A stretch of DNA of 64,000 nucleotides. Source: Thiotrichaceae bacterium (GTDB taxonomy: Bacteria > Pseudomonadota > Gammaproteobacteria > Thiotrichales > Thiotrichaceae). Under the pieces are notes generated by a model that ran no database searches, was not told the DNA's origin, and was given only the letters and a program-made list of their open reading frames with translations. The stretch spans positions 1-64,000 of the forward strand of contig JALXAX010000012.1 of the NCBI GenBank assembly GCA_026991755.1, written 5' to 3'. A program made the translations under genes and the position numbers. This document shows, piece by piece, positions 31,329-48,493 of this stretch. Position 1 is the first letter of the stretch, and each line of letters starts with the position of its first letter.

Positions 31329-31488
31329 GGAATCTCTGATTAACTCTGATCGGAATTTCTGAGAGATAGAATTTGTCAGGTTTTTGCTAGAAAAGTTAGC
31401 AATAGCCGTAGCTATTGGTCACTTTTATAGCGAAAAACTGGCAGATTCTAGCCTCAGAAAAACGAATCATGAGTTGATCAGAGCTTCC
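31329..31488. repeat. MITE-B, copy 6, directly adjoining copy 5
   Basis: 160 bp, left end GGAATCTCTGATTAACTC and right end GAGTTGATCAGAGCTTCC. It is bounded by TTAA at 31325-31328 (shared with copy 5) and 31489-31492. It lies in inverted orientation relative to copy 1, with the shared core AATAGCCGTAGCTATTGGTC near 31408. It ends 39 bp before the gspG start, so the two elements replace the natural upstream region of the pseudopilin operon. Confidence 0.88.
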
Positions 31489-31527
31489 TTAAGCAATAAT
31501 CATAACAAATTTAATAGGGGTTTATTG

Positions 31528-31965
31528 ATGAATAGACAAATGACGAAAAGACAACAGTATCAATCCGCACATCAGGTGTCAGGTTTTACATTAATCGAGG
31601 TCATGGTAGTAGTACTTATCCTTGCTATATTAGCTGCCGTGGTAGCACCAAAAATATTAGGCAAGCCCGATGAGGCTCGAATTACCGCCGCCAAAACAGA
31701 TATAACTTCGATAGAGACATCAATGGATTTATATCGAATGGATAATTTCCAATATCCGCCTACTTCCGATGGCATATCCGCTTTATTGACTAAGCCATCA
31801 GGAGCGACCGACAACTGGAAGGCTTATCTGAAACGTGAGCCTAAAGACCCATGGGGTAATCCTTATAAATATACCAACCCAGGAACCCACGGTGAAATTG
31901 ATATCTATTCTTTAGGCCCAGATCGTGTGCCTAGTGATGACGATGTAGGTAACTGGTCTAACTGA
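31528..31965 (+). CDS. gspG: Type II secretion major pseudopilin GspG
   Basis: Forms the periplasmic pseudopilus that pushes proteins through the type II secretion channel. The 145-residue precursor has a prepilin peptidase site in VSG^FTLIEVMVVVLILAILAAVV, with Glu5 of the mature form, a long hydrophobic helix and the GspG hallmarks RMDNFQYPPTSDGISALLT and DPWGNPYKYTNPGTHGEIDIYSLGPD, including calcium-binding residues. The ATG at 31528 has AGGGG nine bases upstream; an upstream open frame is MITE-derived and not coding. It is first in the gspGHIJ series, separated from gspH by MITE-B copy 7. Confidence 0.96.
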   Translation: MNRQMTKRQQYQSAHQVSGFTLIEVMVVVLILAILAAVVAPKILGKPDEARITAAKTDITSIETSMDLYRMDNFQYPPTSDGISALLTKPSGATDNWKAYLKREPKDPWGNPYKYTNPGTHGEIDIYSLGPDRVPSDDDVGNWSN

Positions 31966-31971
31966 TATTAA

Positions 31972-32087
31972 GGAAACTCTGAACAAGTCATGATTCGTTT
32001 TTCTGAGGCTAGAATCCGCCACTTTTCTATCAAAAAACTGACAAATTCTACCACTCAGAAATTTCGATCAGACTTAATCAGACTTCC
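31972..32087. repeat. MITE-B, copy 7, inside the gsp operon
   Basis: 116 bp with termini GGAAACTCTGAACAAGTC and GACTTAATCAGACTTCC, flanked by TTAA (31968-31971 and 32088-32091). It occupies nearly all of the gspG-gspH gap, starting 7 bp after the gspG stop codon. Confidence 0.88.
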
Positions 32088-32105
32088 TTAAGTAAGTGAA
32101 ATTCC

Positions 32106-32651
32106 ATGAGAGTCCCTAATTTACCGTTTTTAATACGACCTTCTCAGGTAATAGGCGCAAAGCATAGTGGTTTTACCTTAATTGAGTTGCTAGTTGTCTT
32201 AATCATTATTTCAGTAATGGTCGGTGCGGCAACTATTATGCTTAAACGTGACTTTACTGATTTACTGGCCGATGATGCTAAGCGGCTCAAAGCATTAGTT
32301 TCGTTGGGTAGAGATGAGGCATTGTTTCAATCAAGATCATTAGGTCTGCGTTTCTATGAAGATGGCTATGATTTTGTTATTGGTGGTGAAGAATTAGGTA
32401 CATGGGTTCCGCTAGAGGATAAGCAGTTTAGAAAGCGTAAACTTGCTAAAGGAGTGGAGTTGGAGATATTCCGAAAGAATGCATCCATTGATCTCATTAG
32501 TAAGGAAAATAAACAACCACAGGTTTTTTTACTGTCAACGGGAGAGGTGACGCCGTTTCGCATTGAACTAGTCTACCCTGCAAAAGCAAAGCTTAAACTT
32601 CGTTTCGATGGTTTGGGTGTGGCTGAAATACTTTCAAATGAAAATTTTTAA
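32106..32651 (+). CDS. gspH: Type II secretion minor pseudopilin GspH
   Basis: A 181-residue protein with a prepilin-type leader (HSG^FTLIELLVVLIIISVMVGAATI) and a globular domain (LAKGVELEIF, VFLLSTGEVTPFRIEL) typical of GspH. It is one of the minor pseudopilins thought to sit near the tip of the pseudopilus. The leader before the cleavage site is longer than usual (about 21 residues). The order G-H-I-J is as expected. The gene may depend on read-through of the MITE between gspG and gspH. Confidence 0.9.
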   Translation: MRVPNLPFLIRPSQVIGAKHSGFTLIELLVVLIIISVMVGAATIMLKRDFTDLLADDAKRLKALVSLGRDEALFQSRSLGLRFYEDGYDFVIGGEELGTWVPLEDKQFRKRKLAKGVELEIFRKNASIDLISKENKQPQVFLLSTGEVTPFRIELVYPAKAKLKLRFDGLGVAEILSNENF

Positions 32652-32687
32652 AAAAATACTATCTATTTGTCTTATATATTCATAGGT

Positions 32688-33059
32688 ATGAAAACAACTA
32701 ATCAAAAAGGTTTTTCTTTATTAGAGGTCATGGTGGCTTTAGCTATCGTGGCTGTTTCCTTGGGGGCGGTTATTCATGCTGTTGGTGTTTCTGCTACCCA
32801 TGAAGCGGCGATGGGTGAGAAAACTTTTGCACGTTGGGTGGGGATGAACCAGTTAGCAAAACTAAAGATAGAACATAAGTGGCCAAGTATTGGGAGCAGT
32901 AAGGGCGACGAAGACATGGCAGGTGGAAAGTGGGTGTGGAAGCAAAAAACACTTAATACGGATGATAAAAATGTGCGGCGTGTTGAAGTCTCTGTATGGC
33001 GAGCAGGTAATGAAAAAAACAGCGCTGATGCCTTTATTGTTGGCTTTTTGGCGAAATAG
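32688..33059 (+). CDS. gspI: Type II secretion minor pseudopilin GspI
   Basis: A 123-residue protein with a prepilin leader (MKTTNQKG^FSLLEVMVALAIVAVSLGAVI) and the GspI features ARWVGMNQLAKLKIE and GGKWVWKQKT. GspI forms the tip complex with GspJ and GspK and initiates pseudopilus assembly. The ATG at 32688 is preferred over an upstream TTG (32667), because the leader peptide then has the usual short length. Spacing to gspH is 36 bp and to gspJ 2 bp. Confidence 0.92.
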   Translation: MKTTNQKGFSLLEVMVALAIVAVSLGAVIHAVGVSATHEAAMGEKTFARWVGMNQLAKLKIEHKWPSIGSSKGDEDMAGGKWVWKQKTLNTDDKNVRRVEVSVWRAGNEKNSADAFIVGFLAK

Positions 33060-33061
33060 AA

Positions 33062-33703
33062 ATGATAACTAATAACCCTTCGCTGAAATGTTCAATAAGA
33101 CAAGCTCAGGCAAAGAAACAACTAGCTTTCACCTTAATTGAATTGTTGATAGCGATGGCTATTTTTGCTGTTATGGCTGCACTGGCGTTTGGTGGTTTGC
33201 GTTCTGTTATCGCAACTAGTAGTGGAGTCGAACAACAAATAGAACGCCTGGAAAGCTTGCAACGTACCGTTATGTTTTTAGAACGTGATGTCCGCCAATT
33301 AGCGGCAAGACCCGTGAATACAGAAGTGGCAAAAAGACGTTATGCACTACAGGCAGGCCCCAATGGGGATATATTGCTTGAATTTACCCGAGCAGGAAAC
33401 CCCAACCCTGGTGGTTTAACGAGAAGCAGCTTGCAGCGTGTTCGTTATGTACTAGAGGAAGGTGTGCTTATCAGGCAGACATGGGATCAAGTTGACAGCT
33501 TGCTAAGTGATGAGCCTGTAAAGCTCAAATTATTGGATAAACTTAAGGGCGTGAAATTTAAGTTTCTTGATATAAACAATAAGTGGCAAACGAACTGGGG
33601 AATAAGAGGGCCTTTAGACCAGCTTCCATTAGCTGTAGAGATAGTGCTTGAGCATGAGCAATGGGGTGAGGTTAGACGATTAATTCCCGTATTCGGGTTT
33701 TAG
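33062..33703 (+). CDS. gspJ: Type II secretion minor pseudopilin GspJ
   Basis: A 213-residue protein with prepilin cleavage before FTLIELLIAMAIFAVMAALA and the GspJ signature LERDVRQLAARPV, followed by a beta-rich globular part (RVRYVLEEGVLIRQTWDQVD). It pairs with GspI and GspK at the pseudopilus tip. It starts two bases after the gspI stop. No gspK follows: the next 344 bp hold no gene and an efflux operon begins, so the tip component GspK must be elsewhere or absent. Confidence 0.93.
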   Translation: MITNNPSLKCSIRQAQAKKQLAFTLIELLIAMAIFAVMAALAFGGLRSVIATSSGVEQQIERLESLQRTVMFLERDVRQLAARPVNTEVAKRRYALQAGPNGDILLEFTRAGNPNPGGLTRSSLQRVRYVLEEGVLIRQTWDQVDSLLSDEPVKLKLLDKLKGVKFKFLDINNKWQTNWGIRGPLDQLPLAVEIVLEHEQWGEVRRLIPVFGF

Positions 33704-33785
33704 TCATATCCTTTACTGTACTTAGAATGAATTCTTAGTGTAAATACATAAGTTAGAATAAAGCCTGACTTATGTCACATTTTGT

Positions 33786-33814
33786 TTGCCAGTATTATAT
33801 AATTAGAATATACT
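33786..33814 (+). promoter_or_regulatory. Promoter upstream of the efflux-ParA-dynamin locus
   Basis: TTGCCA (33786-33791) and TATACT (33809-33814) with exact 17-bp spacing, inside the 344-bp gap after gspJ. Transcription from about 33821 would give a leader of roughly 210 bases before the minileader at 34031. Nothing else was recognised in the gap. Confidence 0.6.
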
Positions 33815-34015: not shown

Positions 34016-34051
34016 AGGAGGAGATAAAAAATGGAGCGTAATACCGCATGA
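34016..34051 (+). promoter_or_regulatory. Strong ribosome-binding site and 6-codon minileader overlapping the adaptor start
   Basis: AGGAGGAG at 34016-34023 is 7 bp from an ATG at 34031 that opens the six-codon frame MERNTA. Its TGA (34049-34051) overlaps the ATG of the efflux adaptor (34048) in ATGA. The adaptor has only a weak GGAG of its own, so it may be translated by reinitiation. Confidence 0.55.
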
Positions 34052-35214
34052 CTAATAGAAAAACAAATTTTAAACCAGCTTTCTATCTGGTGGTTACTTT
34101 GCTGTCTGTGTTTGCATTACATACAGCAAGCGCGGCGAAAATTATTAATGTAGAAAGCAAAAACTCTACAGCACAGACGGTACTCGGAAGTACTGTAATT
34201 CCTTATAAAGAAGTCACTCTTTCTGCTCAAATACCAGGGCGGGTAATAACGATTAATGGTGATGTTGGAACCACTCTCAATAAAAATGACTTAATCGTAA
34301 AAATTAATGATGATGGTATTCAAGCTAAACGTCGATCGGTATTAGCTGCTTTAGAGTCTTCTCAAGCGGCTTTACGAAATGCACAGACTCAATACAATCG
34401 TGAAATGGTCTCACCTCGTAGTAAAGATATCTCTGGAATGCCGGGAATGGGTTTGCCCACGATGATGGATATTTACATGACGCGCCCTATGTACGAGATG
34501 ATGGGTGATTATAATGAAGGAACCAATCGTTACTCTGATCTGATGAACAGCGCGACAGGCGTGTCTCAAGCAAAAAGCCAAGTGATGCAGTCGTGGTCAC
34601 AGCTCAGTGAGATTGATGCAAAACTGACTAACGCAGTATCAACAGCGCCTTTCACAGGGATGATTTTGGCGAAAATGGTTGAAGTGGGCGATACCGTTCA
34701 ACCTGGACAGCCACTGATTAAATTGGGTGATGTTCGATTTAAGCGTCTAAAAGCTGACGTACCTTCAATAATGGTCAAGAACTTGAGTAAAGGTATGGTA
34801 GTGCCTGTAACTATTAGTGGCAGTCTCAAGACGGAAGCTCGTGTTGCTCAGATTTATCCTATTGCTGATCCTTCTCGACATACAGTAACGGTTAAATTCG
34901 ATTTATATACCAATATTAATGCTGCGCCTGGTATGTATGCTGAGATTAAAATTCCCAATAGCACACAGAAGTCTGAAAAAGTCATTGTTATTCCCAAGAG
35001 CGCATTGCTGCCAGGCAGAAGCTTGGACAGTGTATTGCTTGTTAAAAACGGCAAATCCGAGTTGAGACTAGTCCGATTAGGAGCAAACCAGGAAGATGGA
35101 AAAAAAGTAGCTGTCGTTTCAGGTCTGAGTGCAGGTGATCAGATCATCGACGAACCCCCTGCCACTGCAAAGTCTGGTTATATGCCCTCTGATGAAGTGT
35201 CAAAATCAGAATAA
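34048..35214 (+). CDS. RND efflux periplasmic adaptor (membrane fusion protein) with Met-rich insert
   Basis: A 388-residue adaptor that should link the inner-membrane RND pump to an outer-membrane channel. Signal peptide (PAFYLVVTLLSVFALHTASA), biotinyl-lipoyl-like half-motifs (VTLSAQIPGRVITINGDVGTTL and APFTGMILAKMVEVGDTVQPGQPL, in parts), beta-barrel and membrane-proximal regions (IYPIADPSRHTVTVKFDL, VIPKSALLPG) are all seen. The helical hairpin is short and interrupted by residues 120-166, which contain ten Met (SGMPGMGLPTMMDIYMTRPM). Such clusters are seen in copper-handling proteins, so metal binding is possible. It starts at the overlap with a minileader. Confidence 0.9.
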   Translation: MTNRKTNFKPAFYLVVTLLSVFALHTASAAKIINVESKNSTAQTVLGSTVIPYKEVTLSAQIPGRVITINGDVGTTLNKNDLIVKINDDGIQAKRRSVLAALESSQAALRNAQTQYNREMVSPRSKDISGMPGMGLPTMMDIYMTRPMYEMMGDYNEGTNRYSDLMNSATGVSQAKSQVMQSWSQLSEIDAKLTNAVSTAPFTGMILAKMVEVGDTVQPGQPLIKLGDVRFKRLKADVPSIMVKNLSKGMVVPVTISGSLKTEARVAQIYPIADPSRHTVTVKFDLYTNINAAPGMYAEIKIPNSTQKSEKVIVIPKSALLPGRSLDSVLLVKNGKSELRLVRLGANQEDGKKVAVVSGLSAGDQIIDEPPATAKSGYMPSDEVSKSE

Positions 35215-35254
35215 CCTATTTGTCACATTCCGAGATCTTGCTGGGTAAAATTAT

Positions 35255-38200
35255 ATGACCGATCATAAAGAAGCCAAACCACAAAGAAAACATGCCTTAG
35301 GTATAGCAGGGGGCTTAGCTAAAGCATTTATTACATCACCTATATCACTCTTGCTTATTATCGCATTCCTTGCGATTGGTATATTGGGTTTACAAATCAC
35401 ACCCAGACAAGAAGATCCACAAGTCTCTGTGCCTATGGTGGATATATTTGTAGGTTACCCAGGTGCTTCTGCTGAAGAAGTTGAGAGCCAAATAGCACGA
35501 CCGCTGGAAGGCATTATGTCGGAGATCACGGGAGTTGAACATGTGTATTCCGTGTCTGCTCGTGGTCAGGCGATGGTAACAGTACAGTTTACAGTGGGTG
35601 AAGATTACAATGAGTCTATTGTAAAACTTCACGATAAACTGGAAGCTAATAAAGGCAGCATGCCGTCAGGTACGAGAGGTTTTTTGGTTAAACCAAAAGG
35701 CGTCGATGATGTACCTACGGTAACGTTAACACTATGGTCTAATGAAGTTGAAGATGCCTCTTTACGACTTGTGGCTTTAGATGTTTTACAAAGCTTGCGT
35801 GAAGTGGCGAATACCAGTCAGAGTTTTATTGTAGATGGTCGGTATGATCAGGTAGTTATTGAAATCCTTCCCGAAAGATTAGCGACTTATGGAGTGTCTT
35901 TAGGTCAAGTTGCTAATACCATCCGAATGGCGAACTCTGAGCGCAATGCAGGTGGTATTGAGCCAGGAGATAAAGTACTTACGATTGTAACGGGTTCATT
36001 TCTAAAGAATGCTGAAGATATTAATCGCTTAATGGTGGGTGTGGTTGATAATCGCCCTGTTTATGTGCGAGATGTTGCGTCTGTAAAAGAAAGTGCAAGT
36101 GAAACAAGCCGAGTAGTGACCTATTACACAGGCAAGGCAAGTGGGTCTGAAGAAGTAGCGATGGGTGCAGCTGCCGTTACCATTGCTGTCGCTAAGAAAC
36201 ATGGAACCAATGGTGTTGAAGTTTCAGAAGCTATTTTGGAGAAAGTTGAAACGCTAAAAGGTCGCTCAATCCCAGATAATATTCATGTGGCTATCACGCG
36301 AGATTATGGCGCCTCAGCAAAAGAAAAAGTAAATCATTTATTAAAGAAACTCGTCATAGCAACGCTCATTGTAACCGTATTGGTTTGGTTGTTTCTGGGC
36401 TGGCGTGCTTCATCGGTTGTGTTAATTATTATCCCGATTGTGCTAACAACAACCGTATTTTCTGCTTGGGCATTAGGCCTGACCATTGACCGTGTTAGTT
36501 TGTTTGCACTGATATTTTCAATAGGTATTCTGGTTGATGACGCCATTGTGGTGGTCGAGAATATTTATCGACGTTGGTTGTTAGCCGATAGTCTCGATAC
36601 AGAAACGGCGATTGATGCTGTGCGAGAAGTGGGTAATCCCACTATCATTGCAACCTTTACGGTTATTGCAGCCTTGTTACCGATGGGGTTTGTAAGTGGA
36701 ATGATGGGACCTTATATGTCGCCGATACCAGTACTAGGTTCGGTTGCTATGTTGATATCATTATTTGCCGCATTCGCCTTTACTCCGTGGCTTACTAACA
36801 AGTTGAAACCTGATGTTGATCATCTAAGAGAAGCGGCTGAGAAAGAGCACAAGCAGGCAGCAGCGATGGATCGTTTCTATCGTAAAATTATCATTCCAAT
36901 GATCAGGAAGCCTAAGAAAGGCAAAGTGTTCTTATATGGGATTATTGCAGTCTTCTTTGTTTCAATACTGCTCTTTTACCCCACCAAGTTTGTTCGTGTA
37001 AAAATGTTGCCGCTTGATAACAAGCCGGAATTTAATATTGTAGTTAACTTCCCTGAAGGAACTGCATTACCTGTAACGGCTAATCTCATTAATAATATGT
37101 CAATGTATTTAAAAGACATTGATGAAGTTACCGCACTGCAAACTTATGCAGGCACGGCATCACCCTTTAACTTCAACGGCTTAGTGCGTCACTCTTACTT
37201 GCGAAGCAAAGCTTGGCAAGGTGATATACAAGTGCAGCTTGTTGATAAGCATGATCGTGAAAGAAGCAGTCATCAAATTGCGGATGCAGTACGTGAAGCT
37301 TTAACACCCATTGCTAAAGAAGCAGGAGCGCGTATTGAGGTTGTGGAAATGCCACCTGGGCCTCCCGTGTTACAAACCATTGTTGCAGAAATTTATGGGC
37401 CAAGTGCTGAAGTGCGCCGTGAGTTCGCTGAAGATATGCGTAAGAAGTTTGAAGAAGCAGAAAATATTGCCGATGTTGATAACTTCCTAGAAGCTCCACA
37501 TGAAATATTGCGATTCAAAGTAGATGCGGATAAAGCACAAAGAAAAGGAATATCAGTAGAAGATATTAATAGAACCTTAGAAATGGCAATGGGTGGGTAC
37601 ATTCTGGGTGATATTAAGAAGAACAAATTAATAGATCCAACACCTATTGTTATGCAGGTTCCTTTAAGTGTTCGTTCAGATATTTATCGTTTAGTGCAGC
37701 TCCCCGTGACGAGCAAATCGGGGGTTGCTATCCCTCTAGCAGAATTAGGTGCTTTTTATCGTGAACCCGAAGATAAGCCTATTTACCATAAAGATCTAAG
37801 GCCCGTTGAGTTTGTAACCGGTGAAGGTGTCGGTAAATTTGCGGCACCTGTTTACGCTCAGTTTGAAGTGCAAGATTTATTGGCGGCTGATAATGATGGT
37901 GAAGGTTATAAAGCTCCTGATGGAACGGTCGTAACGGGCGGTCATTGGTTAGGAACACCCAAAGAATCGAATGAATCCTCTTTTGAATGGGGCGGTGAGT
38001 GGACGGTTACCTTCGAAACATTCCGAGATATGGGTATAGCCTTTATGGCAGCGTTAGTGTTGATCTATATGTTGATCGTCGCTCAATTTGGCAACTTTAT
38101 TTTGCCCGCTATCGTTATGGCACCCATTCCACTGACTCTTATAGGAATAGTGCCAGGGCACTGGATCATGGGAGCAGATTTCTCAGCGACCTCAATGATC

Positions 38201-39301
38201 GGTTTTATTGCTCTGGCTGGAATTATAGTCAGAAACTCAATACTGTTAGTGGACTTTTCCCGTGAAGCTGTTATGGAAAAAGGTATGTCGGTGATGGATG
38301 CGGTGATTCATTCTTGTGAAGCAAGAACAAGACCTATTGCAATCACGGCGTTAGCTCTAATGGGTGGGTCATCAGTCATCGTTTCTGACCCTATTTTCCA
38401 AGGAATGGGGGTATCCCTTATTTTTGGTGGATTGGTATCAACTGTTTTAACTTTACTGGTGATTCCACTAGGTTGTATTAGTGCAGGTGACGCATTGCGT
38501 ACGGATGGTGGTGAATCTGCTGCTGTAATAGCAGATAGCGATACAGGTGTCGACGTGCAATCTATAACAAGCTCTTCTTATGATGATGAAACATTATTTG
38601 ATAAAGCAAAAGAAGGCGCAGGAACCGTTGTCGGCATTGCGGTTACTGTTTTAGGTATGATTTTTTCAGGAATAAAAAGCTTATTTGGTCTAGGTGTAGA
38701 GTTGCTTGGTAAGAAGAAAAAGCTTGCTGAATCAAAAGATTCTGAATCAGTTGTTGTCAGCAAAATAAATGAAAGTCATAATGCGGTTCCGAAAGGAAAA
38801 GCAATGCCAAAGGCTAAAGCGTCACCCAAAGGTAAGGCAGCTCCAAAAGCTAAAGCAGCTCCAAAAGCTAAGGCAGCTCCAAAAGCTAAAGCAGCTCCAA
38901 AAGCTAAAGCAGCTCCAAAAGCTAAGGCAGAGCCAAAAGCTAAGGCAGCTCCAAAAGCTAAAGCAGCTCCAAAAGCTAAGGCAGAGCCAAAAGCTAAGGC
39001 AGAGCCAAAAGCTAAGGCAGAGCCAAAAGCTAAGGCAGAGCCAAAAGCTAAGGCAGAGCCAAAAGCTAAGGCAGAGCCAAAAGCTAAGGCAGAGCCCAAA
39101 GCTAAAGCAGAGCCCAAAGCTAAAGCAGAGCCCAAAGCTAAAGCAGAACCAAAAGCTAAAGCAGCTCCAAAAGCTAAGGCAGAGCCCAAAGCTAAAGCAG
39201 CTCCAAAAGCTAAAATAGAACCCGAGGCTAAGTCAGAACCAATGTCAAAAGCTAAAAGCCCATCTAAGCGTAGAGGTATACGCTTAAAAGATGATCTTTA
39301 A
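35255..39301 (+). CDS. RND efflux permease with long Lys/Ala/Pro C-terminal tail
   Basis: A 1348-residue proton-driven exporter. The canonical RND core (about 1-1085) has TM1 after a short N-terminus (SPISLLLIIAFLAIGILGL), PRQEDPQVSVPMVDIFVGYPGAS (parts), and the TM4 proton-relay pair in IGILVDDAIVVVENIYRRW. It also has the second half with ATSMIGFIALAGIIVRNSILLVDFSRE (parts). About 260 extra residues follow: an acidic stretch, a hydrophobic segment (GIAVTVLGMIFSGIKSLFGLG) and a Lys-rich tail with 21 perfect AxPKAK hexapeptides (38837-39214). Such tails are not part of RND pumps. Substrate is unknown. Confidence 0.93.
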   Translation: MTDHKEAKPQRKHALGIAGGLAKAFITSPISLLLIIAFLAIGILGLQITPRQEDPQVSVPMVDIFVGYPGASAEEVESQIARPLEGIMSEITGVEHVYSVSARGQAMVTVQFTVGEDYNESIVKLHDKLEANKGSMPSGTRGFLVKPKGVDDVPTVTLTLWSNEVEDASLRLVALDVLQSLREVANTSQSFIVDGRYDQVVIEILPERLATYGVSLGQVANTIRMANSERNAGGIEPGDKVLTIVTGSFLKNAEDINRLMVGVVDNRPVYVRDVASVKESASETSRVVTYYTGKASGSEEVAMGAAAVTIAVAKKHGTNGVEVSEAILEKVETLKGRSIPDNIHVAITRDYGASAKEKVNHLLKKLVIATLIVTVLVWLFLGWRASSVVLIIIPIVLTTTVFSAWALGLTIDRVSLFALIFSIGILVDDAIVVVENIYRRWLLADSLDTETAIDAVREVGNPTIIATFTVIAALLPMGFVSGMMGPYMSPIPVLGSVAMLISLFAAFAFTPWLTNKLKPDVDHLREAAEKEHKQAAAMDRFYRKIIIPMIRKPKKGKVFLYGIIAVFFVSILLFYPTKFVRVKMLPLDNKPEFNIVVNFPEGTALPVTANLINNMSMYLKDIDEVTALQTYAGTASPFNFNGLVRHSYLRSKAWQGDIQVQLVDKHDRERSSHQIADAVREALTPIAKEAGARIEVVEMPPGPPVLQTIVAEIYGPSAEVRREFAEDMRKKFEEAENIADVDNFLEAPHEILRFKVDADKAQRKGISVEDINRTLEMAMGGYILGDIKKNKLIDPTPIVMQVPLSVRSDIYRLVQLPVTSKSGVAIPLAELGAFYREPEDKPIYHKDLRPVEFVTGEGVGKFAAPVYAQFEVQDLLAADNDGEGYKAPDGTVVTGGHWLGTPKESNESSFEWGGEWTVTFETFRDMGIAFMAALVLIYMLIVAQFGNFILPAIVMAPIPLTLIGIVPGHWIMGADFSATSMIGFIALAGIIVRNSILLVDFSREAVMEKGMSVMDAVIHSCEARTRPIAITALALMGGSSVIVSDPIFQGMGVSLIFGGLVSTVLTLLVIPLGCISAGDALRTDGGESAAVIADSDTGVDVQSITSSSYDDETLFDKAKEGAGTVVGIAVTVLGMIFSGIKSLFGLGVELLGKKKKLAESKDSESVVVSKINESHNAVPKGKAMPKAKASPKGKAAPKAKAAPKAKAAPKAKAAPKAKAAPKAKAEPKAKAAPKAKAAPKAKAEPKAKAEPKAKAEPKAKAEPKAKAEPKAKAEPKAKAEPKAKAEPKAKAEPKAKAEPKAKAAPKAKAEPKAKAAPKAKIEPEAKSEPMSKAKSPSKRRGIRLKDDL
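38837..39214 (+). repeat. 18-bp coding tandem repeat, 21 units
   Basis: Unit GCAGCTCCAAAAGCTAAA or its GAG-containing variant encodes A-A/E-P-K-A-K. The order of variants is five AAPKAK, AEPKAK, two AAPKAK, ten AEPKAK, then AAPKAK, AEPKAK, AAPKAK. Synonymous AAA/AAG and CCA/CCC changes show stepwise expansion. Because the unit is a multiple of three, all frames stay open across it, which creates long spurious frames on both strands. Confidence 0.95.
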
Positions 39302-39332
39302 AATTTTTTAGAATGAATATATAAGGTATTTT

Positions 39333-40376
39333 ATGAAACCCGCACATAAAGGAATCGGTGTTATAGGACTAGCAACTGGAGCAACAGTGCTAGCTATTTC
39401 GTTATTAGGTTGCACAGGATGCAGTAAAGATGAGAGCAGCGATGCTACCGCTGATAAAGAGTCTGTTGTAGACGCAACTGTTGAAACTACGGCCAAAGCA
39501 GAAGCTGTTAGCAGTGAAGCACCAGCTCATGTACAAGTGAAAGCTGAAAATACAGAAGCTGAAACAGCAATCTCAAATTCTGATGCATCGGTTAAAGCAG
39601 AGGGAAATGCTCCGGTTGCAGAAAAAGAAGTCCCTGCAGAGATGAAGGCTGTAGTTGCGGAATCAGATACAGCAAATACTGTAGTTGCTCCTCCACCTCC
39701 TGGTTTATTTCAGGTGTCGGGTGACCATCAGGGCAGTGCAGAAGCGATGAAACAGCCTGTGGCGCCTACATCTCCAGTAATACCAGCTGCGCCACAAAAT
39801 ACGGTCAATCAGGTAGCTGCTCCCGCTCAACCTCAAAGTGCTCAAGCACCTGCTACTCCATCTGCACCACAAGCACCAGTGATTAAGGTGGAAGCCGCTA
39901 AGTTTCCAGAGTCTATGAATGCTAAAACAGCAGAAGCAGCTAAGCCAGCTAATACTGGCGTCACGATCCCTGCTGCTCCTATGGCAAAACTAGCAGAGCC
40001 AGAAGCACCTGCTAGTGTAGAGATTCCTAAAATGGAGATGCCAAAGGCTCCCGTTCTTAAGAAGCCAGAGATGAAAGCCCCTGTTGCAGAGAACACAAAA
40101 AGTGGTGTAAATACAGGAAATGCAAATGTATCATCTACTTCGATGAATATGCCATCTACTTCGATGCAGATGCCTAATATGCAAATGCCCAATATGAATA
40201 TGGGTACACCTCAGATGAACCAAAACATGGGATATATGCCACGTATGTATTATGTTCCTGTACCTATGTACTATGCTCCTTATGGCATGCCTGCAGGCGC
40301 ACAAGGGCAACAGCAAGGACAGCAACAGCCTAAAGCGGCACAACCTCAAGCAGAGCAGGCAAAAGAGCAAAACTAA
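39333..40376 (+). CDS. Low-complexity lipoprotein with Met-rich C-terminus
   Basis: A 347-residue protein with a lipoprotein signal ending in SLLGC (Cys27). The mature part is a long Ala/Pro/Glu/Val-rich unstructured stretch. Near the C-terminus (about 265-320) it has a Met/Asn/Gln-rich section (STSMQMPNMQMPNMNMG) and then Tyr/Pro- and Gln-rich tails. It could span the periplasm or bind metal like other Met-rich proteins. Ribosome-binding site AAGG precedes the ATG. It sits 31 bp after the pump gene and 2 bp before the ParA gene, so it is part of the same transcription unit. Confidence 0.82.
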   Translation: MKPAHKGIGVIGLATGATVLAISLLGCTGCSKDESSDATADKESVVDATVETTAKAEAVSSEAPAHVQVKAENTEAETAISNSDASVKAEGNAPVAEKEVPAEMKAVVAESDTANTVVAPPPPGLFQVSGDHQGSAEAMKQPVAPTSPVIPAAPQNTVNQVAAPAQPQSAQAPATPSAPQAPVIKVEAAKFPESMNAKTAEAAKPANTGVTIPAAPMAKLAEPEAPASVEIPKMEMPKAPVLKKPEMKAPVAENTKSGVNTGNANVSSTSMNMPSTSMQMPNMQMPNMNMGTPQMNQNMGYMPRMYYVPVPMYYAPYGMPAGAQGQQQGQQQPKAAQPQAEQAKEQN

Positions 40377-40378
40377 AG

Positions 40379-40999
40379 ATGGCTATAACAGTTGTTGGCA
40401 ATTTAAAAGGTGGCACAGGTAAAAGCACAGTAGCTTTTAACTTGTCTTTATGGGTGGCTACTAATAGAAATGCTTATGTCTCTGTTTATGACCTCGATCC
40501 TCAGGCAACATTAACAGATGCGCTTGAGATCCGGACTGAAGACGGTTATACGCCTTCTATAAGCCCCTATAACGATATCAATGAGATAAAAAATGAAGGT
40601 AGAAATACCGAAATAATAATTGATATTGGTATGTCTGATTCCGCTGCTATGGAAAAAGCGCTTGAAATAGCAGACAGGGTCGTAGTGCCTATTGCCCCCA
40701 GTCAAGCAGACGTCTGGTCGACACAACGTTTTTTGAAGTTAATCGAAAAAGCTAGATCAGGGAAAAAGGTCGAAATAGTAGGATTTATGAATCGTGCTGA
40801 TACGCATCATGGTGTTCGTGAGACGGATGAAGCGTTAGCTGCGATGAAGACATTATCAGGTATAAAGATGCTTGAGTGTAAATTGTACCAACGTACCATC
40901 TATAGGCGGTCTTTTAGTGAAGGCTTAGCCGTTTTTGAGTTAGATCGACGGTCGAAAGCGAAAGAAGAGTTAGATGTGTTAGGTAATAGTTTATACTAA
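40379..40999 (+). CDS. ParA/MinD-type ATPase, orphan (McdA-like)
   Basis: A 206-residue deviant Walker ATPase. The P-loop NLKGGTGKSTVAFNLS has the signature Lys10 and Lys15; the A' motif is YDLDPQA and Walker B is EIIIDIGMSD. The short form lacks the N-terminal helix-turn-helix of plasmid ParA, and no ParB gene or parS-like sites are beside it. Orphan ParAs of this size (McdA, ParC, PpfA types) position protein cargo such as carboxysomes, chemoreceptor arrays or envelope complexes along the nucleoid. I infer that its cargo is encoded next to it: the RND complex or the membrane proteins downstream. Confidence 0.87.
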   Translation: MAITVVGNLKGGTGKSTVAFNLSLWVATNRNAYVSVYDLDPQATLTDALEIRTEDGYTPSISPYNDINEIKNEGRNTEIIIDIGMSDSAAMEKALEIADRVVVPIAPSQADVWSTQRFLKLIEKARSGKKVEIVGFMNRADTHHGVRETDEALAAMKTLSGIKMLECKLYQRTIYRRSFSEGLAVFELDRRSKAKEELDVLGNSLY

Positions 41000-41005
41000 G
41001 TTTCT

Positions 41006-41100
41006 AAATTCAATTTTTCAGTTAGCACTCAATGTGCTTGATTAATTGAATTTTAAATTTAAGAAATAATTAAAAAGATGTGGTTTTCGTTAGAAAACCA
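41006..41100 (+). terminator. Two hairpins between the ParA and TPR genes
   Basis: A perfect 10-bp stem AAATTCAATT / AATTGAATTT (41006-41015 and 41044-41053), then GGTTTTC / GAAAACC (41083-41100) just before the ribosome-binding site AAGGAG. They may partly end transcription after the ParA gene or process the mRNA. Confidence 0.45.
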
Positions 41101-41117
41101 TTATAAGGAGTAATTAA

Positions 41118-41930
41118 ATGCATATTTTTCGTTGGCTGTTATCACACCCAATTATTACCGCTTGGATTCTTGCGGCTCTAGCTATATTGCTCAATATAAA
41201 TATGGGTTCTAAGTCGGAAGGACATAAGCAGGTAAAAGTTGCTCATGTTGCTTCTGAAAATGTATCTGATGCTTCACATAGAGAAGTAAAAGAAAATGTT
41301 CAAGAGCCGTATTCGGCTCTGGTCGCTAAAGAAATGTCAGCTGAAAAAACTTCAGAGCAAGTTTCTAGTGGTAGTACAGAAACTGATGAGAGTCATTCCG
41401 CGAATAAAGTTGAATCAGACGCAGAAAATTCTGTAGAAACTAAGACTCCAGAGCAGACATCAGAAAGTGATGAATCAGAATCTAAAGCCTCTGCAAATAC
41501 TCAAGTAGTTGCTACGGCAGCAGTTAATGCCGCACAGTTGGAAGTAAAAAAAGATCAACCAGAAAGTACTAGCAACCCTGAAGAGACAGTAGAGAATAAT
41601 GCGGGCAGCTCTGCTGGTTTGGAGTCTATGAGCGAAGAAGATTTATTGAAACTTGCTCGTGAAGCATTCTGGCAAAATGAAAAGGACAAGTCGGCAGCGG
41701 TTTATCATGCATTAATAGAGCGTGTACCCTCATCACTTGGCTATAAAGGTGAGTTAGCTAATGTGTTATGGCATCAGAATAAGCAAAAGGAATCAGCTGC
41801 ACTGTATGCTGAAATCGCTATGCCAATGCTAGAGCAAGGTAAAACAAGAGAAGTAGGAAATATGTTGGGTTTCATTGGTGTGTTTTTTCCAGAGAAAGCT
41901 CGTGAAATACATCGTTCCATGTCGGAATAA
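41118..41930 (+). CDS. Single-pass membrane protein with acidic linker and TPR-like domain
   Basis: A 270-residue protein. Residues about 10-28 form one membrane helix (PIITAWILAALAILLNI). Then comes an acidic Ser/Glu-rich linker of about 140 residues, and a C-terminal helical domain with tetratricopeptide-like pairs (LLKLAREAFWQNEKDKSAAVYHALIERVPSS, then ELANVLWHQNKQKESAALYAEI). The topology of an N-terminal anchor plus distal TPR would let it recruit a partner protein. Ribosome-binding site AAGGAG is strong. It lies between the ParA gene and the coiled-coil gene in the same direction. No named family is recognised. Confidence 0.75.
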   Translation: MHIFRWLLSHPIITAWILAALAILLNINMGSKSEGHKQVKVAHVASENVSDASHREVKENVQEPYSALVAKEMSAEKTSEQVSSGSTETDESHSANKVESDAENSVETKTPEQTSESDESESKASANTQVVATAAVNAAQLEVKKDQPESTSNPEETVENNAGSSAGLESMSEEDLLKLAREAFWQNEKDKSAAVYHALIERVPSSLGYKGELANVLWHQNKQKESAALYAEIAMPMLEQGKTREVGNMLGFIGVFFPEKAREIHRSMSE

Positions 41931-41956
41931 GTAGAGTGAAGGTAGTGGTATAGATT

Positions 41957-42574
41957 ATGGGCGAAAAAAGTGACTTACATCGCGATTATGTATTAGAGCT
42001 TGAAAGTGAACTTCATGAGCTTGAAAAGCGTGAAGAATCTTCCACGCGTCGAATGCAGATGCTGGTATATCCTGCAATGGTCGCTTTTATTATCCTTGCT
42101 GCCTATGGTTTCTTTCTTGTTCACTCGTTAACGACTGATGTTGGCAAGATGGCTAAATCCATCGTCGTTATTTCTGATGCGGTGGGTAATAATATGAAGA
42201 TTATTTCATCTAGCACCATTGCAATGTCAGACAAAATGTCTAGCTTAGTTAGTTCGACAGAATCCATGTCGGGCAGAGTGGGTGATATGACGTCGAAAGT
42301 CGGTTCGATGTCGCAGAACATTGGTGTAATGCGAGATTCTACTGAAAGTATGGCATCATCTACCAATAATATGCAGCAAGATATGTGGAGCTTAAATCAG
42401 AATATCTCAACCCCTTTGAGTATGTTTAATAAGTTTATTCCATGGAGCAATAATTCCAACGGCCGCTTTCGTGGGTCAAACCCACAAAGACAAGCGCCTC
42501 CACCCCCCGTATATTACCAGCAACAGCCTATACAACAACCACAAGCCCTACAGCCCGCTCCAGTCCCTCAGTAA
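41957..42574 (+). CDS. Membrane-anchored Met/Ser-rich coiled-coil protein
   Basis: A 205-residue protein. A short charged N-terminal helix (YVLELESELHELEKREESS) is followed by one membrane helix (about 36-58, MLVYPAMVAFIILAAYGFFL) and a long coiled coil (about 60-150) with Met and Ser at repeating positions (SDKMSSLV, SGRVGDMTSKVGSMSQNI, STESMASSTNNM). A Pro/Gln-rich C-terminal tail ends the protein. It resembles magnetosome- or chemoreceptor-like helical stalks only in general shape. It is 26 bp after the TPR gene. Function is unknown; it could form oligomeric anchors in the cell envelope. Confidence 0.75.
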   Translation: MGEKSDLHRDYVLELESELHELEKREESSTRRMQMLVYPAMVAFIILAAYGFFLVHSLTTDVGKMAKSIVVISDAVGNNMKIISSSTIAMSDKMSSLVSSTESMSGRVGDMTSKVGSMSQNIGVMRDSTESMASSTNNMQQDMWSLNQNISTPLSMFNKFIPWSNNSNGRFRGSNPQRQAPPPPVYYQQQPIQQPQALQPAPVPQ

Positions 42575-42655
42575 CTCTAGTCCAAGTTTACGTAGAGTAA
42601 TAATCAGGCTCTCTGCTTAGTGGGATAGAAAGAAATTAAGTTAAGGATAGATGAA

Positions 42656-44077
42656 ATGACGCCAGATAAACGGATTAAAGAAAGATTAGAGCGTTTACAA
42701 AAACATTTAAAGCAAGAAGCTCCCATTCTTGTAGATGTTGTTGATAGATATCAGCAACTAGATAAAGTGGCTCTGGGTTTAGGGTTAATTGCCCCTGGTG
42801 AGTCCTATGCGACACAAATATCATGGTGGCCGATGATTTCTATTCTCGGTACGTTCTCTGCGGGGAAATCCAGTTTTATTAACTCATTTGTAGGTTTACC
42901 CCTTCAAAAAACGGGTAATCAAGCGGTGGATGATAAATTCACTGTTATTACTTATACCACTGATTCAGAAACTAGAACGCTACCAGGTTTGGCTTTAGAT
43001 GGTGATCCACGTTTTCCGTTTTATCAAATTAGTGAAGATATTGAGAAAGTGGCAGCAGGTGAAGGCTCTCGAATAGATAATTATCTGCAAATGAAAGTAG
43101 CGCCCAGCGATGCCCTTCGTGGAAAAATTCTTATAGACTCTCCAGGCTTTGATGCTGATGAGCAGCGTAAGTCTACTTTACGTATTACCGATCATATTAT
43201 TGAATTATCAGACTTAGTATTAGTACTTTTTGATGCAAGACATCCAGAGCCAGGAGCGATGCAAGATACCTTGGAGCACCTAGTTAAAGGCGCTCAAAGA
43301 AGAAATGATAGTAGTAAGTTCTTGTTTATTTTGAATCAGATTGATACTTCAGCTAAAGAAGATAATCTGGAAGATATCGTAGCCTCTTGGCAAAAAGCAC
43401 TAGTACAGCATGGCTTGAGTGCAGGGCGCTTCTATGTGTTGTACAACGAGCACCTAGCGGTACCTGTTGAAGATAAGAATGTGTGGGCACGGTATGAGTC
43501 CAAGCGGGCTGCAGATTATAGCGAGATTACCAGCCGCATGGATGGTATAAGTGTTGAGCGTGTTTATCGTATTATTGGTTCAATGGAGTCCATTGCTAAT
43601 CAGATTGAGCATCAATCTGTGCCGAGATTACAAGCGGCTTTGCAGTCTTGGAGTAAGCGTGTATTAACAGCGGATGGAATTGTATTGGCGACTGCTGTTA
43701 TTGGGTCAGCAATTACATCCGTGATAGCAGGCTATTGGCAAGGTATCACTTTCAATCCTCCTTGGCTTGATACATTAATGTCTAGCAAACCCCTGCTGTA
43801 TGGTTTAATAGCTGCTGTTGTGTTGCTGTTGGTGCTAATACATTTTTACTTCAGAAAGCTATTTGCAAAGTCTATTGCTAAGACATTAACGAGTGATAAT
43901 GCAGGTGACTTAAAAATTGCTTTCCTAAAAAGCACTTCACCTTTCAGAAGTATCTTTTCCAGTAAGCCAAAAGGTTGGACAAGACGTACTAGAAAACGCC
44001 TTGATGCGCTACGTGATGATACAGACAGATTCGTACAAAAATTGAATGACAAGTTTGCACGGCCTTCTGGTGGCTAG
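42656..44077 (+). CDS. Dynamin-like GTPase with C-terminal membrane hairpin
   Basis: A 473-residue large GTPase of the dynamin superfamily. G motifs are clear: G1 in ILGTFSAGKSSFIN, G2 Thr in KFTVITYTT, G3 in LIDSPGFDAD, G4 in ILNQIDTS. A helical part follows, and two hydrophobic segments (about 337-360 and 380-403, LLYGLIAAVVLLLVLIHFYF) that should insert in the membrane, then a basic tail. Bacterial dynamin-like proteins remodel or protect the cytoplasmic membrane. Homologues are often encoded in pairs, but only one is present here. It ends the 10-kb efflux-ParA locus, 81 bp after the coiled-coil gene, with AAGGA upstream. Confidence 0.88.
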   Translation: MTPDKRIKERLERLQKHLKQEAPILVDVVDRYQQLDKVALGLGLIAPGESYATQISWWPMISILGTFSAGKSSFINSFVGLPLQKTGNQAVDDKFTVITYTTDSETRTLPGLALDGDPRFPFYQISEDIEKVAAGEGSRIDNYLQMKVAPSDALRGKILIDSPGFDADEQRKSTLRITDHIIELSDLVLVLFDARHPEPGAMQDTLEHLVKGAQRRNDSSKFLFILNQIDTSAKEDNLEDIVASWQKALVQHGLSAGRFYVLYNEHLAVPVEDKNVWARYESKRAADYSEITSRMDGISVERVYRIIGSMESIANQIEHQSVPRLQAALQSWSKRVLTADGIVLATAVIGSAITSVIAGYWQGITFNPPWLDTLMSSKPLLYGLIAAVVLLLVLIHFYFRKLFAKSIAKTLTSDNAGDLKIAFLKSTSPFRSIFSSKPKGWTRRTRKRLDALRDDTDRFVQKLNDKFARPSGG

Positions 44078-44496: not shown

Positions 44497-44657
44497 GGAA
44501 TCTCTGAACAAGTCATGTATCATTTTTCTGAGGCTATAATTTGCTAGCTTTTCGCTATAAAAGTGACCAATAGCTACGGCTATTGCTAACTTTTCTGTCA
44601 AAAACCTGACAAATTCTATCTCACAAGAAATTCCGATCAGACTTATTCAGAGACTCC
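44497..44657. repeat. MITE-B, copy 8
   Basis: 161 bp with termini GGAATCTCTGAACAAGTC and GACTTATTCAGAGACTCC and the shared core GACCAATAGCTACGGCTATT near 44562. Flanks CAAA and TAAA agree at three of four bases. It ends 20 bp before the GFA gene start and may form its 5' leader. Confidence 0.82.
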
Positions 44658-45286: not shown

Positions 45287-48200
45287 TTAATCCTCATTGG
45301 ATGCAGGTGAATCACTGTCCATAACCACTTTTTTCAGTGGAGTGCGAGTTGACTTAGTAGTAGGTTTTTTAGTATTGCCTGAAGCAACTTTCACTGTCTT
45401 AGACTTTGTTTCTGACTTTATTTTGTCAGTTTTTTGAGTTGTAGTGCTTGAAAGCTTTTCACTAGAAGACGGCTTCTTTGCTTCTGGTTTTGCTTTAGAG
45501 GGCGCAGACTCAGTCTTAACCTTTTTAGCTGTGGTTGGTTTTTTCTTAGAACCAATATTTTGATTTTCTTTTTTTTCTACTGTCTTTTTTACCGTAGGCT
45601 TTTTAACTTTCTTAGTTTCAGCATTTGTTGTGCTTCTTTCTTTGTTGGTCGTCTTATTTGTAGCACTTTTAGCTGATGCTTTCTTAGTGGCCAGCTTGGC
45701 TGCCTTAGTTTTTGTGGGTGCTTTCGTGTCCACCTTAGTATCTGTCGATGCAGCCTGTACTTTGCTTTTACTAGCAGCTTTGGTTGTATCAGGCTTATTT
45801 TTAACGGGTTTAGTGACCGTTTTCCGTGGTTGTTTTGTGGTATCTGTTGATGAGCTTTTGCTAGTTTCTTTAGTGCTATTTTTTACAGTATCCGTTTTCA
45901 CAGTTTTGGAAGATTTCTGCTTAACAACTTTAGGCTTATTATCTTGAGTTTGTTTTGTGTTGTTGCTTGTGGTTGTTTTCGTTGCTTCTGTATCACTACT
46001 AGATTTTGCAGAGTCCGTTTTAGGCTTATTAGTTTTGGTCACAGGTTTTCTTTTAACAGGTGAGCCAGGTCTAGGGATCTTGATTTCAATAGGTGTCATA
46101 TCCATTTCATCAAGATTGTTCTTCATGACATCAATCTGATTGCTATTCGTGTTGCTGTTTTGTTGTTTGTTATTGCGGGTATTTCGACGGTTACGATTCT
46201 GGTATTGATTTCTGCGATTATTGCGAGCAGGTCTATTCTGGTTAGAGTTTGTATTGTCCTGAGTGTATTGCGGGTTGTTAGCAGTTGTGTCAGCGCTGGC
46301 TTTATTATCAGGCTTATTCTCTCCAGGTTTATTGACAACGGATTTGTTATCAGCAGTTCTGTTTTGGGCTTTGTTAGGCCTGTTATTTTGCTTGTTCTGA
46401 TTTTTATTCTGAGTAGCAGGCTTTCTCCTGTTTTGGTTGGGATTTGTAGCCTTCTTTGCAGTGTTCTGAGCTGTATTTTGAGCCGCCTTCTGGTTTCTGT
46501 TATTACCTTGATTTTGCTTTCGTGTATTACCTTGTTTGTGGTTTTGTTGCTTATTTCCAGATTGATTATTGTTGTTGTTGCGATTGTTATTTTGTCTTCT
46601 GTTGTTCTGATTGCCTTGGTTATTAGCAGGTCTACGTCTTTGCTGAGGCTTACGTCTATTAGTGTTCTGTGATGTCTTTGCTTTCTTTGTTACCGGTTCT
46701 TTAACGGGCTTATTTTTAGCAGGTGCATCATCGTTGGGCTTATCTTCTGCGCCGAATAGTGAGGTGAAGACACGACTTATAAACCCTTTCTTAGTGGGGG
46801 CTTTATTAGTGTCGGTATTAGTATGGGTATCGGCACGGGGAGATGCTGTTTTAGCAGGCTTCTCATGATGTGAGGGCACGGGGACAGGAATGTCAGGCAT
46901 GACTTGCTTAACAGCAGGTTGTTCAACTTTAGCAACAACCGTCTGCTCTGTTGATTTAGTGGCCTCGTCTTCATCTGCTTGAGCGATATGCTCATAGCTT
47001 GAAAGCGTTTCAAATTTGCCATCCTGAGACCTAACTCTTTGGATGTCATAATGCGGAGTATCCATGTGAGGATTCGGCAATATAACAATATTTATCTTAT
47101 GGCGAGTTTGTAGCTTGGTAATTGCATCACGCTTCTCGTTAAGAAGGAAGCTAGCGACCTGTATTGGCACTTGAGCGGTTACTTGATGTGTCATGTGCTT
47201 CATGGCTTCATCTTGAATGAGGCGTAAGATAGAGAGTGCTAAAGACTCAACACTTCGGAATGAACCGTGACCACTACAGCGAGGACAAACGATTTGGCTA
47301 GCATCACCCAATGAAGGGCGTAAACGCTGGCGTGACATTTCTAACAAGCCGAAACGTGAGATGCGTCCAATTTGTACACGAGCACGGTCAATTTTTAAAT
47401 TATCACGAAGTCGTTTTTCAACGGCACGCTGGTTCTTATTCGGCATCATATCGATGAAATCAATCACCACTAGGCCACCTAAATCACGTAAGCGTAATTG
47501 ACGAGCAACCTCATCAGCCGCTTCAAGGTTGGTGTTATAAGCGGTCTCTTCTATATCGCCACCTTTGGTAGCGCGTGCCGAGTTTACGTCTATCGAAATG
47601 AGTGCTTCAGTGTGGTCGATAACAATCGCGCCACCCGACTGCAATGTTACTTCACGTTGGAATGCTGATTCAATTTGATGCTCAACCTGATAGCGACTAA
47701 ACAGGGTGACATTTCTATCGGAATAGTGCTTTAACTTAGATAAGTTGTGAGGCATAACCGCTTTCACAAACTCACGGGCTTGATTATAAATAGCTTCTTT
47801 ATCGAAGATAATCTCGCCAATATCAGGGCGAAAATAATCACGTAGCGTTCGAATGATTAGGTTGCTTTCTTGATAAAGCAGAGTAGGTGCAGGGTGGTTC
47901 TTATGAGCGAACTGGATAGCTTTCCATAGCATTTTTAAGTAATCCAAGTCCCATGATAGCTCTTCCAGTTCACGACCTAAACCAGCCGTACGAACAATCG
48001 CACCACCATTTTCAATATCGAGTTCTTTTAGAATTTGCTTAATACGGTGACGGTCTTCACCTTCAATTCTTCGGGATACCCCACCCGCACGAGGGTTGTT
48101 GGGCATTAATACCAGAAAACGCCCTGCTAAACTGATAAATGTGGTTAAGCTTGCACCCTTGTTACCACGTTCTTCTTTTTCTACTTGTATTAAGACCTCT

Positions 48201-48493
48201 TGACCTTCTTTAAGTACATCCTTTATAGAAGGGCGACCCTTAATCTCTTTGGTCGAACTCCAGTATTCTTTAGAGACCTCCTTGAAAGGTAAAAAGCCGT
48301 GACGTTCTGCGCCATAGTTGACGAAAGCGGCATTAAGGCTGGGCTCAACGCGTGTAATCGTGCCTTTATAGATGTTCGATTTTTTCTGTACTTGATTGGT
48401 ATGTTCGATATCTAGGTCGTAAAGGTACTGCCCATCAACCATTGCAACCCGTATTTCTTCTTGTTCGGTTGCGTTTATAAGTATTCTTTTCAT
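45287..48493 (-). CDS. rne: Ribonuclease E
   Basis: The essential endoribonuclease for mRNA decay and RNA processing and the scaffold of the degradosome at the inner membrane. The 1068-residue protein has the S1 domain ([26 protein letters not shown], in parts), 5'-sensor and DNase-like regions with the catalytic Asp pair in [14 protein letters not shown] and VVIDFIDM, and the zinc-link CPRCSGHG. After about residue 520 the protein is disordered: Asn/Gln/Arg-rich and then Lys/Thr/Ser-rich, without recognisable RhlB or enolase sites. That divergence is usual for the family. A long upstream gap may hold an autoregulatory leader. Confidence 0.96.

Follow-up and report, generated by a model that had tools for sequence, protein, structure and literature searches.

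A seven-gene set combining a resistance–nodulation–division (RND) pump, a ParA-family ATPase and a dynamin-like GTPase, found in a Thiotrichaceae bacterium on a 64,000-nucleotide stretch of DNA (the window; contig JALXAX010000012.1, positions 1 to 64,000), is strongly linked to sulfur-globule proteins. The set provides a clear candidate for each step by which sulfur bacteria form, place and pass on their globules. We propose that it is probably a conserved ParA-type system for organising sulfur globules in the periplasm, with the RND pump as its membrane-embedded cargo adaptor. If this is correct, ParA biology would gain both a new cargo and a membrane-embedded type of partner, an uncharacterised dynamin-like family would gain a role, and globule formers would gain a genomic marker. 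The earlier note on this DNA had suggested that the set could serve to cluster or position an export complex of the envelope; the conserved association and a pump motif that tracks ParA support that idea in part, but the probable cargo, the sulfur globule, had been missed.

The link to globules comes from the Pfam family sulphur globule protein (SGP; PF17228), with matches scored against the Pfam cut-off. Among the 369 gammaproteobacterial genomes of our co-occurrence sample, SGP is present in 55; ParA accompanies it in 49 of these, compared with 16 of the 314 SGP-free genomes (odds ratio (OR) 152, p 4e-40), and none of the 55 lacks both ParA and the dynamin. The gene dsrA, which the window genome carries, likewise goes with ParA (55 of 65 genomes with ParA versus 64 of 304 without it; OR 20.6). 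SGP nevertheless predicts ParA even within dsrA-positive genomes (43 with and 6 without ParA, versus 12 and 58 where SGP is missing; OR 35, p 5e-15), which places the link with globule proteins rather than with sulfur oxidation as such. Counting genomes does not give phylogenetically independent observations, but this test and a family-level one agree in direction: with one vote per family, 25 of 27 SGP families are also ParA families, out of 176 (p 7e-22). The association is also physical. An SGP gene lies no more than about 8 kb from ParA or RND in 20 genomes, and the open reading frame (ORF) between RND and ParA, which encodes what we call the slot protein, itself matches SGP above the cut-off at loci L055 (1.9e-8), L072 (1.9e-7) and L092 (2.5e-13) and, in another class, L239 (5.6e-15), with L205 at the cut-off. 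In Allochromatium vinosum, sgpD, which encodes the most abundant globule protein of that organism, adjoins a gene for a 'hydrophobic/amphiphilic exporter' (HAE) and is upregulated 28-fold on sulfide (PMC10386293). Slot proteins of our set are SGPs in many lineages, as in that sgpABCD system, but the exporter there is likened to the window pump by HAE class and sgp adjacency only, and the slot protein of the window is not an SGP by profile.

The pump itself is an RND permease of the HAE type, with ACR_tran matching over the full core and 12 transmembrane (TM) helices. Its nearest solved relatives are 6vej (annotated as an RND efflux transporter), 8gjj and MexK, and its orthologues are 50–68% identical. 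The TM4 residues D428 and D429 are invariant in orthologues, as is R993 (38231–38233; 47 of 47), which lies in the TM10 motif IIVRNSILL at what we take to be the position of the TM10 proton-relay lysine of AcrB. Although the ACR_tran fold, the adjoining adaptor gene and the TM4 aspartate pair are shared with HAE-type pumps such as TriC, MexK and MdtBC, the window pump has the arginine R993 and adds an extra C-terminal helix, a linker and an RGIxLK motif. In an AlphaFold2 (AF2) model covering residues 1–1200, the extra helix is a single helix of 43 residues (predicted local distance difference test (pLDDT) about 70–77); it is hydrophobic in all 47 orthologues; its hydrophobicity is close to that of TM12, and its moment exceeds that of TM12. 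The linker occurs in most orthologues, ranging in composition from Lys-rich to acidic Glu/Pro-rich or Ala-rich. What had been described as a Lys-rich tail exists, but its lysine content, the product of an 18-bp repeat, is not conserved, whereas its last residues are. A functional part for the lysines, as a nucleoid-binding tail, is made less plausible by the acidic, Pro-rich or Ala-rich linkers of orthologues. Two overlapping ORFs (38769–39218, + strand; 38776–39189, − strand) are by-products of this minisatellite and not genes.

It is the end of the tail that varies with ParA. The terminal RRGIRLK is near-invariant in orthologues and has a single occurrence across the 3.66-Mb window genome. 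Scored as [RK]GI[RKQ][LI][KN] at the C-terminus of those orthologues whose 3′ end is intact, the motif is present in 58 and absent from 2 ParA-positive genomes, as against 2 and 9 of those without ParA (p 4e-8). Both ParA-less genomes that have the motif (G110 and G012) show a contig break where ParA is expected, and in G079, which has ParA, the motif sits in a shifted frame. Losses run in parallel, most cleanly in two cases. Family f80 (G102, G227) retains the dynamin, the coiled-coil protein, the adaptor and RND, together with secreted proteins rich in Gly, Tyr and Pro, SGP among them; it has no ParA, and its pump ends beyond the last helix without a tail. In Thiofilum, ParA and the pump tail are both missing. 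In addition, the three genomes of genus g7 lack ParA throughout, and the single RND of this group found among the three is tailless. This co-variation supports a direct relation between pump and ParA.

The deviant Walker A motif of the ATPase with the signature lysine (K10-GGTGKS-T17, KGGTGKST) and a C-terminal RRSFSEG are invariant in 14 relatives, with conserved basic residues downstream; the nearest structures of the ATPase are ParF/ParA, and NCBIfam ParA_partition (NF041546) matches with 120 bits, below the curated cut-off of 180. Together with the CbiA/AAA_31 matches, the Walker A motif confirms its reading as a ParA-type ATPase. Like ParABS, McdAB of carboxysomes, ParC/CheW and FlhG (PMC10241942), it is small, with a signature-lysine Walker A and a basic C-terminal motif. 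Partners of ParA-type ATPases make contact through positively charged disordered termini (PMC10241942), which the pump tail resembles; by this analogy the pump would be the candidate partner. It would differ from partners in the other ParA/MinD positioning systems in being a polytopic RND permease with a C-terminal motif, in serving a cargo that would lie across the inner membrane, and in being coupled to a dynamin. Our literature survey found no description of a system joining RND, ParA and dynamin; in publications on sulfur globules, dynamin figured only as a reported absence in SUP05, and ParA nowhere. We know of no described ParA system with this gene set.

In the mechanism that we propose, the RND permease and its adaptor would sit at the globule in the inner membrane, facing the globule-coat proteins encoded beside them. 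The basic end motif of the disordered permease tail would engage and activate nucleoid-bound ParA, whose action would distribute the globules and hand them on to daughter cells; the coiled-coil and tetratricopeptide repeat (TPR)/TM proteins would provide a scaffold there, while the GTPase of dynamin type would bend or seal the inner membrane around the growing globule. Here we infer the ParA–tail contact, the membrane side of the tail, the direction of transport and membrane remodelling by the dynamin. Globules are placed at random in many species and at the poles in some, and their coat proteins have been described (PMC10386293). A bolder version, which we entertain only tentatively, is that the set is an organelle-biogenesis machine, in which an RND permease with a ParB-like tail peptide and a dynamin together make and segregate globules enclosed by inner membrane; it would mean that a ParA system can act on cargo beyond the cytoplasm and that a bacterial dynamin takes part in forming an organelle.

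Several observations weigh against the globule-organising reading. The slot protein of the window has no Pfam SGP match, and no SGP was found in the window genome, dsrA-positive as it is; that the slot protein is a diverged SGP is unsupported (2% in a profile comparison with slot SGPs). The dynamin occurs in 31 genomes without dsrA (G051, G074, G083 and G107 among them), and given these carriers it may have a second role. SUP05 forms periplasmic globules yet is reported to be without dynamin (PMC6509183); not every globule former, then, needs the set. G010 has ParA without a tailed pump, the only clear such case besides G176. G010 also has, at L048/L228, a compact adaptor–ParA–dynamin cluster from which RND, the secreted protein, TPR and the coiled-coil protein are cleanly absent, and untailed pumps of this group elsewhere in its genome. 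Finally, the modelled extra helix may span the membrane as a 13th TM helix, which would leave the tail periplasmic and separated from ParA.

This last point underlies the alternative that we regard as the strongest, albeit unlikely: a globule-associated transporter whose periplasmic tail anchors the pump to the coat of the globule or to the cell wall, with ParA recruited by the coiled-coil or TPR protein. The TM12-like hydrophobicity of the extra helix and its modelling as one continuous helix would suit this, and the coiled-coil gene is next to ParA in nearly every lineage, including those in which the dynamin is missing. By the positive-inside rule, however, the 45 residues that follow the helix, which carry a mean net positive charge, as against a preceding loop that is mostly neutral or negative, favour a cytoplasmic tail; and the motif tracks ParA even where the coiled-coil protein is kept, as in f80 and Thiofilum.

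Less probable again is a positioned export system of general envelope function, such as drug or lipid efflux, linked to globules through the shared ancestry of sulfur oxidisers. RND, adaptor and dynamin do belong to general-purpose families, and the dynamin reaches beyond dsrA carriers; but shared ancestry sits poorly with an SGP–ParA link that persists among dsrA carriers and at the family level, and with SGP genes embedded in the cluster. Nor does any gene for an outer-membrane channel lie near the cluster, in which the window pump again departs from HAE-type pumps; this fits delivery into the periplasm and proves nothing. Genomic context gives no support to drug efflux in particular, and the SGP genes inside the cluster, with the genome-wide SGP co-occurrence, make it likelier that the pump works at globules, as adaptor or transporter, than that it is a drug exporter being positioned.

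The gene set extends well beyond the window genome, which is Thiotrichaceae-type with Thiothrix, Cocleimonas, Thiofilum and Leucothrix as named family relatives. The order adaptor–RND–secreted protein–ParA–TPR–coiled coil–dynamin is common to most genera of the family (Thiothrix, Cocleimonas and Leucothrix relatives). In genus g7 the locus lacks RND, ParA and the coiled-coil gene and keeps TPR and dynamin. Other gammaproteobacterial families show a co-directional layout (for example, L055, L061–L066, L072, L100 and L107) or a divergent one, with RND, adaptor and ParA opposed to dynamin (Sedimenticola, Candidatus Thiodiazotropha and the Escarpia laminata symbiont); of the 56 genomes that have both ParA and dynamin, a hand count places the two no more than ~12 kb apart on the same contig in 37. 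Ten regions were retrieved from genomes belonging to other classes of the phylum; in most of them ParA and the coiled-coil gene are neighbours, while a tailed RND appears in three and the dynamin in two. From these gene sets, the core is RND (with tail), secreted protein, ParA and coiled-coil protein, and the dynamin is a frequent partner; judged from sequence, the coiled-coil protein appears to be a conserved partner of ParA across classes. A pairing of pump and ParA–dynamin group peculiar to this genome would, by the earlier note, have refuted its idea; on neighbourhood comparison the pairing turned out to be family-wide and to occur in many other families. It is very improbable that two unrelated operons, one for the pump and one for ParA and dynamin, came to be neighbours fortuitously or through synteny with the gspGHIJ genes that precede them. 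Those genes do precede the locus family-wide, even in g7, but the association persists, in two layouts, in families and a class without adjoining gsp, and family synteny and recurrence in other families and classes speak against a chance neighbourhood, which we reject. In several families (L055, 11599–13940; L062; L072; L089) the dynamin is followed by genes for a four-TM protein with DUF6394 and for a potassium-channel protein of the TrkA-N type, whose filter reads TIGFGE.

The dynamin-like GTPase has 473 residues. Each of the 24 family members searched carries one copy of its gene, and the proteins aligned are 53–84% identical. The G1 P-loop GTFSAGKS and DSPG are invariant, and G4 reads NQID instead of T/NKxD. 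Foldseek comparison of its AF2 model (pLDDT 81) gave EHD4 as the best match (E 3e-11), with mitofusin, BDLP and IniA also found; the Dynamin_N match, the invariant GTPase motifs and these dynamin-fold matches vindicate the family assignment. It shares a GTPase fold with long helices with bacterial dynamin-like proteins and EHD ATPases but is very short, strongly conserved as a single-copy family and NQxD at G4. A part in anti-phage defence, like that of the bacterial dynamin LeoA, is scarcely credible: PADLOC gave the GTPase a weak LeoA match (2e-7), but no further defence match among the four proteins tested, and single copy number and conserved synteny speak against it.

The features of the locus are collected in the table. 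As had been proposed, seven genes lie on one strand, in the expected order from adaptor to dynamin, and ORFs and Pfam/NCBIfam domains agree. The gaps between them, said to be mostly under 60 bp, measure 40, 31, 2, 118, 26 and 81 bp; four of the six are below that length, and the remaining two are not. Promoter-like sites upstream (33774–33814) and terminator-like hairpins on either side (33746–33775 and 44568–44585), all of them consensus matches, bracket the seven genes, which fits a single unit; on this basis they look like one transcription unit.

Table. Features of the pump–ParA–dynamin locus (positions in the window).
Feature	Position	Strand	Evidence
Periplasmic adaptor (membrane fusion protein) of RND pump	34048–35214	+	RND_mfp 6e-40, HlyD_D23 1e-12; same position in relatives
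RND permease, 1348 aa, 12-helix core and C-terminal extension	35255–39301	+	ACR_tran 3.8e-147
Extra C-terminal hydrophobic helix of permease, residues 1114–1156	38594–38722	+	AF2 single helix; hydrophobic in 47/47 orthologues
18-bp tandem repeat encoding PKAKAE/A low-complexity linker	38828–39213	+	Tandem Repeats Finder (TRF) score 541, 21.4 copies
Permease terminal motif RRGIRLK, candidate ParA-contact peptide	39269–39289	+	Near-invariance in orthologues; tracks ParA
Secreted Pro/Met/Tyr-rich low-complexity protein (slot protein between RND and ParA)	39333–40376	+	Position; composition
ParA-family ATPase, 206 aa	40379–40999	+	CbiA/AAA_31 matches (Pfam/NCBIfam)
TPR/TM protein, N-terminal TM, weak TPR	41118–41930	+	TPR_16 1.8e-4, below cut-off
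Single-TM coiled-coil protein	41957–42574	+	Alignment; next to ParA in most regions from other classes
Dynamin-like GTPase, C-terminal membrane hairpin	42656–44077	+	Dynamin_N 8.5e-16

Two of the smaller proteins answer only in part to their first descriptions. The slot protein, taken for a low-complexity lipoprotein, is of low complexity and secreted, but its lipobox is confined to the genus of the window, relatives carrying an ordinary signal peptide. The supposed TPR membrane anchor has its N-terminal TM segment, but its TPR match falls under the cut-off. The TPR slot varies in other families: at L062 (8283–8966) a DUF302 protein occupies it, between ParA and the coiled-coil gene, and in L084 and L085 ParA is followed by a protein that resembles it in appearance. 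Around the set, gspGHIJ-type pseudopilin genes lie directly upstream (31384–33703), a placement kept throughout the family, genus g7 included, and positions 45287–48493 encode an RNase E homologue of 1068 aa whose C-terminal half is unusually long, of low complexity and rich in Asn and Lys.

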